Source: Bacillota bacterium (GTDB taxonomy: Bacteria; Bacillota; DTU025; MWDF01). Taken from it: DNA of 60,567 bases. Below, piece after piece: positions 44,939-47,585 of the stretch (within the stretch, counting starts at the first letter, position 1; each line of letters starts with the position of its first letter). A model generated the notes under the pieces. The model did not search any database, was not told where the DNA came from, and worked only from the letters and a program-made list of their open reading frames with translations. The position numbers and the translations under genes were made by a program. The stretch covers positions 1-60,567 of the forward strand of contig JAKQNF010000020.1 in assembly GCA_029565935.1 (NCBI GenBank), in the 5' to 3' direction.

Positions 44939-46066
44939 TCAGTCGACCGTGAACCTTGCCAGTCTGCCGGACGAGGATACGAATACGTACCAACCGCCAG
45001 AAACGGCCAAGGCGTCCTTGCCGATCCACGAAGCCTTGTACTCGGCGGTAACGGCCAGTCCCTTGTCTATGATGGCGGCTATGCCATCGCCGGTCATGAA
45101 CAGACCGTTTCCGCTCGTCCCGACAGGCTGGGACAGGACTTTGAACGGAGCGGGCGCCGAAGCCGATACCTTGCCGTCCTTGGCCGCCCTGCTCACGATG
45201 TTCGAGCCACCTTTTTCTATTAGCACCAGGCCGCATTCAGCATCATACGCAAGGTATTGGGGCATCTCGATCGTGACCGACCACAAGACCGAGTTGCCGC
45301 TCATCCCGTCCCACATAACGAGCCTCTTGTAATCGGCTGCCGCGGCTATCCTGTTCGAGGACACCACGGCTATGGCGGTTATGTTGAATGGCCATATGTG
45401 GTTACAGTCGTAGTTCGTATCGCCGTACTTCACGCTGGCTATCGAAAGGTAGTCCAGCGGCTCCATATCGCTGTATATGCCGTAGACCTGCCCTAGCACC
45501 AGCAGGTTGTCGCCGCCCAGGTAAGTCAGGGACCTCACGGGTCCCAGGGCTATGGGTATTCAAGTATCGCATCCCGTGGCCGGGTCGTACAGCCACAGGA
45601 ACTTACCTGCGCTGCTTATGAGTACGGCGCCCCTTTCCGAGGCGACCGCGATCCTGCCGTCGGGCAGCGGTTCCATGGACCTGACCTTCTGCTCCCATAC
45701 GTACGTCCAGGACAGCTTGCCGGCAGGGCTGATTCTGGATATGCGCCTGCCTTGCGAAACCCATGCCCCGCCCGCGCCGTCTCCTGCGATCGAAGTGACG
45801 GCTTCCTTACCGGGATCCCATCTCCATACGGTCGAGCCGTCCTTTGAGATCCTGACTAGCGCGCCGCCTACCATGGCGAGCGCCCCTCCGTCGCCGGTCA
45901 AAGCAGGCCGCACTGTAGAGACGCCTTCGATCACCCAGTCGGGTACCAGGTCCGTCTTGCCGGCGATGACCGGACCCGCCAGGACCAGAAAAAACAGGGA
46001 CACGGAAATAGCTGCCGCTATCTTGATTCTGTCCCTTGCTCCGATGAACATTTCCCCTTCCCCCAT
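44939..46066 (-). pseudogene. Exported beta-propeller protein interrupted by an in-frame TGA
   Basis: One continuous reading frame of 375 codons split by a single TGA at codon 169 (45560-45562); the parts are 168 residues (45560-46066) and the remainder to 44939. The N terminus has a signal sequence or anchor (about residues 14-35, IKIAAAISVSLFFLVLAGPVIA), then PQQ-like propeller blades (ALVRISKDGSTVWRWDPG, SPAGKLSWTYVWEQKV, AGKFLWLYDPATG). The stop falls after GCDT and the frame continues IPIALGPVRSLTYLGG with the same blade character. Possible explanations: a TGG to TGA nonsense mutation, a sequencing error, or selenocysteine (C166-x-x-U169; see findings). ATG 46066 has GAGG seven bases upstream. 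Function unknown. Confidence 0.65.
45530..45562 (-). other. In-frame TGA with downstream hairpin
   Basis: On the minus strand the TGA (45562-45560) is followed after 14 bases by a perfect 6-bp stem GGGACC / GGTCCC with the loop CGTGA. The loop begins 21 bases after the TGA and has G as its second base, within the published range for bacterial SECIS elements. GC-rich hairpins of this size also arise by chance. Confidence 0.4.
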
Positions 46067-46186: not shown

Positions 46187-46831
46187 CTATAGCAAGACAG
46201 GATCGCCCTCATAGCTTACCTGTATCTTCCTGAAATATACGTCCGTGCTCGTGTCGGCATCCGTTAGGAAGCTCACATAACTTACCGCCGGCTTGAAATA
46301 CAGCGCAGTGAAGCTGGAGATCAGCGATCCGTTCAGAGTGATCCTTATGGCATCGCCCTTCCTGGAAAGCCTGAAGACATTATCGCCGTTCTTGAATCCG
46401 GGTATAGGCTTCCTGGTCTCCACGTCCCTGTATTCCAAACCTTCACCGTCCTCGTGCACGAGGACCTCTTCGTTGGCCTCGTCGCCGGCCATGTCGAATT
46501 CGCAGGTAATATAATGCTCCGGGTAGTCGCTTTCGCTGTCTCCCACCCAGATCCTGAAGTTCGCCGTATTGGAGATGTCGACATCCATCCACATGTACAG
46601 CGTAAGCGTAAAGTCGGAAGTAAACCCTATGGGGGACGTCACGTTGTACTCCCTAATGGTGAGCCCCGAACCCGGAGGCTCGTTCAGGTTCCATGCGGAG
46701 GATCCGCCCCAGTCAGCCAAATCGGCGGGCAGAGCCTTAGTGAAATCGACCGTCCATGTCTTCTGGCATCCTGACAGGACCAGTGCAGACAGAAGTACCG
46801 CCATCGCCATGTATATGCGAAGCGTTTTCAT
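46187..46831 (-). CDS. Lipoprotein of unknown function
   Basis: A 214-residue exported lipoprotein. The signal peptide ends in the lipobox LSGC with C22 as the lipidated residue. The mature part is rich in beta strands and aromatic residues (SPIGFTSDFTLTLYMWMDV, GDAIRITLNGSLISSF, YFRKIQVSYEGDP), which suggests a jelly-roll or concanavalin-like sugar-binding fold, but no family is recognised. GGAGG lies before the ATG. It is in the same direction as the split propeller gene 120 bases downstream and the lipoprotein upstream. Confidence 0.78.
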   Translation of the reverse strand: MKTLRIYMAMAVLLSALVLSGCQKTWTVDFTKALPADLADWGGSSAWNLNEPPGSGLTIREYNVTSPIGFTSDFTLTLYMWMDVDISNTANFRIWVGDSESDYPEHYITCEFDMAGDEANEEVLVHEDGEGLEYRDVETRKPIPGFKNGDNVFRLSRKGDAIRITLNGSLISSFTALYFKPAVSYVSFLTDADTSTDVYFRKIQVSYEGDPVLL

Positions 46832-47034: not shown

Positions 47035-47415
47035 CTATATGCCCGTTGCCGGTTTGAACTCAATCCTCACGCTGCCCTGCGCCTTCTCGCCCACGATGGA
47101 AACGACGTACTCGCCCGTCTTGGGCACCCTAATCGTGAAGTTCGTAGTGATGCTGCAATCACCGGAGTAGATCTCCTGACCGGCAGTCGAGGTCAAAGAC
47201 AGCTTGATGCTGCCCTTTATCCTCGTTATGTCGACCTTCAGCTCGTCGCCCTCCTGGAACGACAGGACCTGCGTCCTTTCGCCGTTCAGCATCTCGAAGT
47301 CGATCTGGTATGAGCTGTCATCGACCTTCCTGCTGCCGGAGAATATCTCCTCGTCGCAGCCGCCAAGGCATAATGCCAGCAACAGAATGGATAATATCAC
47401 CGTTGCCTTTTTCAT
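47035..47415 (-). CDS. Small lipoprotein of unknown function
   Basis: A 126-residue exported lipoprotein. MKKATVILSILLLALCLGGC ends in the lipobox with C20. The mature region has short beta-strand segments (YQIDFEMLNGERTQVLSFQEGDELKVD, TGEYVVSIVGEKAQGSVRIEF) that look like a small Ig-like or bacterial pre-peptidase C-terminal type beta-sandwich; this is a guess. ATG 47415 sits eight bases after GGAGG; an in-frame TTG at 47430 lies in that site and is rejected. Confidence 0.78.
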   Translation of the reverse strand: MKKATVILSILLLALCLGGCDEEIFSGSRKVDDSSYQIDFEMLNGERTQVLSFQEGDELKVDITRIKGSIKLSLTSTAGQEIYSGDCSITTNFTIRVPKTGEYVVSIVGEKAQGSVRIEFKPATGI

Positions 47416-47585
47416 AGGCAACACCTCCAATATGTGTGAAAATTTCGTTTTTTGAACATATTAGCAGATTGTACCTTAGCGGATAATACCTGTCAACAGC
47501 TCAATAACTAGATTTTTCTCAGTGGGGGTTCGGATGGCACTGGAAATGGTGTCGCATCGCAGTTAGTGCCCATCCGGGGATTATC

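Follow-up and report, generated by a model that had tools for sequence, protein, structure and literature searches.

Can a TGA in the middle of an otherwise open gene be a codon for selenocysteine (Sec), or does it mark a broken gene? This question is raised by a gene of the PQQ/BamB-type beta-propeller kind in a Bacillota genome, within a stretch of 60,567 nucleotides that we analysed as a whole and refer to as the window. The gene is read from the minus strand (46066 to 44939), a strand that the original prediction had left unspecified. Translation confirmed that, with the TGA read through, the frame comprises 375 codons followed by a terminal TGA (44939-44941), and that the sole internal TGA is codon 169 (45562-45560). 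An alternative start is possible at Met6 (46051). The residues before the internal TGA are Gly-Cys-Asp-Thr, and the cysteine expected three residues ahead of it is indeed present as Cys166 (TGC, 45571-45569), the proposed resolving Cys of a C-x-x-U motif, here C-D-T-U. As argued below, largely from comparative sequence analysis, we consider it very likely that codon 169 is a Sec-decoded UGA in a probably exported beta-propeller, and each test named against selenocysteine in the original prediction that was run came out in its favour.

A homologue search of 61 genomes yielded ten loci in four genomes, three of them from one genus and the fourth (G003) from another family of the same class. Besides the window gene and its orthologues in the two congeners (79% and 54-55% identity), the members are three paralogues in the window's genome (G000), two in G001, one in G002, and one in G003. 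When the family profile was run against 399 genomes of the phylum and the 12 of the class, no additional full-length member appeared; the family is known from few genomes. The codon aligned to position 169 is TGA in all ten members and never TAA, TAG, Trp, Cys, or any other sense codon. A Cys precedes it at position -3 in seven members (CDTU, CFTU, and CATU) and at position -1 in the other three (C-U, within EDCU); it is invariant at one or the other place. A Gly-Pro-Val (GPV) follows the Sec at constant spacing in every member, and the alignment has 21 invariant columns, including the Cys, the Sec, and the GPV. The three members with the Cys directly before the Sec (L006, L007, and L008) form a group of paralogues in which the Sec-to-GPV spacing is unchanged.

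The part of the gene beyond the TGA evolves as coding sequence. In the three close pairs, dN/dS after the TGA was 0.08 (window gene and G001 orthologue), 0.06 (L006 and L007), and 0.14 (L010 and L011), in each pair below the value before the TGA and with dS of at least 1.2. These values indicate that purifying selection acts on the region beyond the TGA and that this half of the gene is translated. Of the ten terminal stops, six are TGA, two TAG, and two TAA. We take the terminal TGA of the window gene as a true stop; TAG or TAA stands there in four of the ten members. A true stop at codon 169 would be expected to vary in the same way, which it does not.

Downstream of the TGA, the original prediction had described a perfect 6-bp stem with a 5-base loop and a G in second place, starting 14 bases after the codon, and we found exactly this arrangement (hairpin at 45545-45529, minus strand). 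The TGA is followed by 14 bases (45559-45546), GGGACC (45545-45540), the loop CGTGA (45539-45535), and GGTCCC (45534-45529). The predicted loop distance also falls in the bacterial range, with the exact figure corrected from 21 to 20 nt. The published bacterial SECIS (bSECIS) model describes a loop of 3-9 nt, a stem of 4-16 bp, a G at loop position 1 or 2, 16-37 nt between the UGA and the loop, and an energy of at most -7.5 kcal/mol (PMC13188914). The window hairpin agrees with all of these, having a loop of 5 nt, a stem of 6 bp, a G at loop position 2 followed by U, a distance of 20 nt, and -11.0 kcal/mol as the minimum-energy structure of the 42-nt stretch. Its folding energy alone is unremarkable compared with shuffled sequences (z = -1.6); the evidence against chance comes from the comparisons between members.

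Across the family, the hairpin follows the consensus GGGRCC-GGUCN-GGUYCC, with a GGUCN loop in six of the ten members. Covariation in the stem was not significant relative to shuffles; the one double-sided change, from G-C to A-U, occurs in L008. Covariation is weak because the stem overlaps the codons for Gly-Pro-Val-Arg/Trp-Ser-Leu, and we therefore used a null model in which synonymous codons were redrawn 20,000 times from the family's own codon usage. Of 60 stem pairs, 58 are intact, against 40.6 +/- 2.8 expected, a value reached in none of the 20,000 draws; with one gene per deep lineage, 28 of 30 pairs are intact against 19.8 expected (3 of 20,000 draws). The window gene and its G001 orthologue are identical at all ten codons from Sec+4 to Sec+13 that are capable of synonymous change, which is equalled in 3 of the 268 windows compared; the other two close pairs show no such identity after the Sec. 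The weakest hairpin is that of L011, whose consensus structure reaches only -5.1 kcal/mol, and in L008 and L010, two of the eight members folded, the minimum-energy fold of the 42 nt is a different structure. Judged from these comparisons, the hairpin is conserved beyond the coding constraint and is a SECIS element.

The window itself had shown no sel genes, and the search for them in the rest of the genome found the complete set. The genes selC, selD, selA, and selB all lie within 7 kb (contig C31, 148213-155181) and all score above the curated cut-offs: the tRNA-Sec with anticodon UCA at 77.9 bits (Rfam RF01852; also called tRNA-SeC by ARAGORN), selD at 378 bits, selA at 498 bits, and selB at 364 bits. 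The selD gene (L028/L101, G000:C31:150760-151680) is itself a selenoprotein gene: its catalytic position (KAGUAAK) is encoded by an in-frame UGA, behind which lies a candidate hairpin, GGTCC-GGC-GGACC, and its counterparts in relatives (L105 and L106) have a UGA at the same position. All four genomes with the propeller family possess selA, as do six of eight class members without the family, so that the family cannot serve simply as a marker of the Sec trait. A search for GrdA gave no match, and no positive control matched either. Formate dehydrogenase-like genes (G000:C3:132824-134689; also in G001, G002, and G003) score below the family cut-off and have no in-frame TGA; formate dehydrogenase is the commonest selenoprotein of bacteria, and its Sec form may be missing here.

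These observations bear on the other ways in which the locus could be read. Taken alone, a single stop within a frame that is otherwise open fits a recent nonsense mutation, for example from TGG to TGA, or a sequencing error, and the original prediction had kept this possibility in reserve. Because the identical TGA recurs in ten genes from four separate assemblies, it cannot be a base-calling error. No homologue has Trp at this place, and the downstream dN/dS of 0.06-0.14 is not that of a disrupted gene; we therefore reject this explanation and give it practically no weight. A reading of the UGA as an amino acid other than Sec, through Trp suppression or a changed genetic code, shares with our interpretation the read-through that any reading of the full frame requires. 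It is extremely improbable and was rejected, given that UGA terminates six of the ten family genes, that a tRNA-Sec (UCA) and a SECIS-like hairpin are present, and that the UGA never gives way to a sense codon.

The locus might also encode two proteins, the first ending at the TGA and the second restarting shortly after it, and a GTG or ATG near the GPV does provide a mechanical second open reading frame in many members. The codon at position 169 is nevertheless always TGA, where a true stop should switch among the three stop codons, as happens at the ends of these genes, and neither half alone would make a complete propeller; the invariant Cys, the SECIS-type hairpin, and the genomic Sec system would all become coincidences. 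We reject this split as very improbable. Finally, the Sec-UGA could act mainly as a selenium-dependent switch between a truncated and a full-length product, in which case the residue itself would matter little. A mid-gene Sec-UGA gives a truncated product when selenium is scarce, which counts in favour of such a switch, but the invariant Cys beside the Sec and the retention of the Sec in every member point to a role for the residue, and we regard the switch as an improbable main function. Selenocysteine at codon 169 thus remains the reading that we adopt. In this mechanism, SelB and the tRNA-Sec (UCA) would insert selenocysteine at UGA 169, guided by the hairpin 14 nt further on; our inference is that they actually do so and that the protein is active outside the cytoplasm.

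The original prediction had noted that both halves of the gene are propeller-like, and a propeller fold is supported by domain profiles and structure prediction. PQQ_2 (PF13360) matches all ten members with an E-value of at most 0.01, the window protein scoring 25.9 bits, just under the curated cut-off of 27.6. In the PDB, the family profile hits both designed and natural propellers of the PQQ type. For an AlphaFold2 model built from four sequences (pLDDT 82, pTM 0.81), Foldseek retrieved the designed Cake propellers, YxaL, and numerous BamB structures. The CxxU occupies residues 131-134 of the model, in a loop that lies between strands of adjacent blades and is modelled with low confidence. 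The N-terminus (45962-46066) resembles a signal peptide, with RDRIK, a hydrophobic stretch, and AGPVIAG; its hydropathy reaches a maximum of 2.67 over 15 residues, and similar stretches are found in all ten N-termini. This call was made by sequence inspection rather than with a dedicated signal-peptide program, and on its basis the protein is probably exported. The full-length product would then be an exported PQQ/BamB-type propeller that carries C-x-x-Sec on an inter-blade loop just before the GPV strand. We tentatively suggest, with somewhat less than even confidence, that the C-x-x-U or C-U forms a reversible selenenylsulfide for extracytoplasmic thiol/selenol redox chemistry or binds soft metals, with the propeller as its scaffold; the CxxU and CU paralogues would suit different partners or ligands.

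In fold and repeat signature, the family resembles BamB and other PQQ-like propellers (PF13360, YxaL, and Cake), whereas the generic propellers that we found lack a CxxU or CU site at that loop. The NCBIfam full-protein model of BamB gives only partial matches, in six of the ten members; the window protein itself matches no NCBIfam model, that of BamB (TIGR03300) included, and lacks a lipobox Cys behind its hydrophobic stretch. Another beta-propeller, SBP56/SELENBP1, is tied to selenium and thiol chemistry. To our knowledge, it is not a genetically encoded Sec protein, and it resembles the present family by analogy only; none of the ten members matched the SBP family in Pfam and NCBIfam scans.

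That beta-propellers are not known selenoproteins, as the original prediction stated, agrees with an inventory published in 2026, which covers 119 families and subfamilies of prokaryotic selenoproteins and has Haft and Tolstoy 2025 as one of its sources. Its Table 1 (PMC13188914) has neither a beta-propeller nor a PF13360 entry, which makes the case new. A scan of the ten members found no match to any NCBIfam selenoprotein model, and a literature search for Sec together with beta-propeller or PQQ-like domains returned nothing relevant; the family appears to be undescribed in the sources searched. Among known selenoproteins, the CxxU motif is found in glycine reductase protein A, in SelW-like and AhpD-like proteins, and in the FCYXU type of TonB-dependent receptor, and the CU motif in SaoL, HgcA, and MbdU (PMC13188914, Table 1). 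The propeller family shares with them a Sec-UGA with a bSECIS, a Cys at -3 or -1, and a host with selABCD; it differs in that none of them is a PQQ/BamB-type propeller and in that we found no Cys homologue for it.

Homologues with Cys in place of Sec, whose pairing is the usual though not the defining criterion for a selenoprotein, since a family may conceivably consist of Sec forms alone, are lacking here: the profile search of the 399 genomes of the phylum found no Cys form of the family. The matches outside the class were generic PQQ repeats, nearly all of them over the upstream blades only, and those reaching the Sec column showed no CxxC or CC motif. A DNA pattern combining CxxU with a hairpin, scanned across genome contigs, gave 32 loci, of which only three, all from the genus, matched the family profile; the remaining 29 appear to have matched by chance. 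A scan for further TGA codons shared between members of the genus could not single out candidates, because stops in the shadow frames of conserved genes are likewise conserved.

New selenoproteins come mainly from pairing Sec with Cys homologues. Without a Cys homologue, the propeller family would have escaped such methods, and the authors of deep-Sep themselves state that Sec-only families are missed by Sec/Cys pairing (PMC12013277). We consider it likely that these genes represent a new Sec-only family of exported propellers, with an inter-blade CxxU/CU redox or metal site and no Cys counterpart, missed by Sec/Cys-pair searches and present as four paralogues, all of which retain the Sec TGA, in a genome of 1.8 Mb. 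Among characterised selenoproteins, the thioredoxin-like fold predominates (PMC13188914). If the Sec-only family is real, Sec can become fixed in a quite different scaffold, and selenoproteomes derived from Sec/Cys pairing are incomplete. The four paralogues in one genome of this size suggest that this uncultured lineage invests substantially in selenium. With the family profile and the hairpin consensus, further members can be searched for directly, and the small size of the gene puts a direct biochemical test within reach.

Upstream of the selenoprotein gene and in the same orientation lies a predicted lipoprotein gene (46187-46831, minus strand, with LSGC), which adjoins the orthologue in all three members of the genus, with 74% identity in G001 (L097) and 41% in G002 (L099); it is tied to the selenoprotein only by position. 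Neither this gene nor a second, small predicted lipoprotein gene further upstream (47035-47430, minus strand, same orientation), which is a conserved neighbour only in G001, has a confident Pfam match. Beside the paralogues examined, we saw no obvious partner of the thioredoxin, CcdA, or cytochrome kind. Genes of peptidase family C69 lie near a paralogue on contig C33 of G000 (L093:482-2245) and beside the only member in G003 (L100:94-1941), a proximity that may be due to chance.
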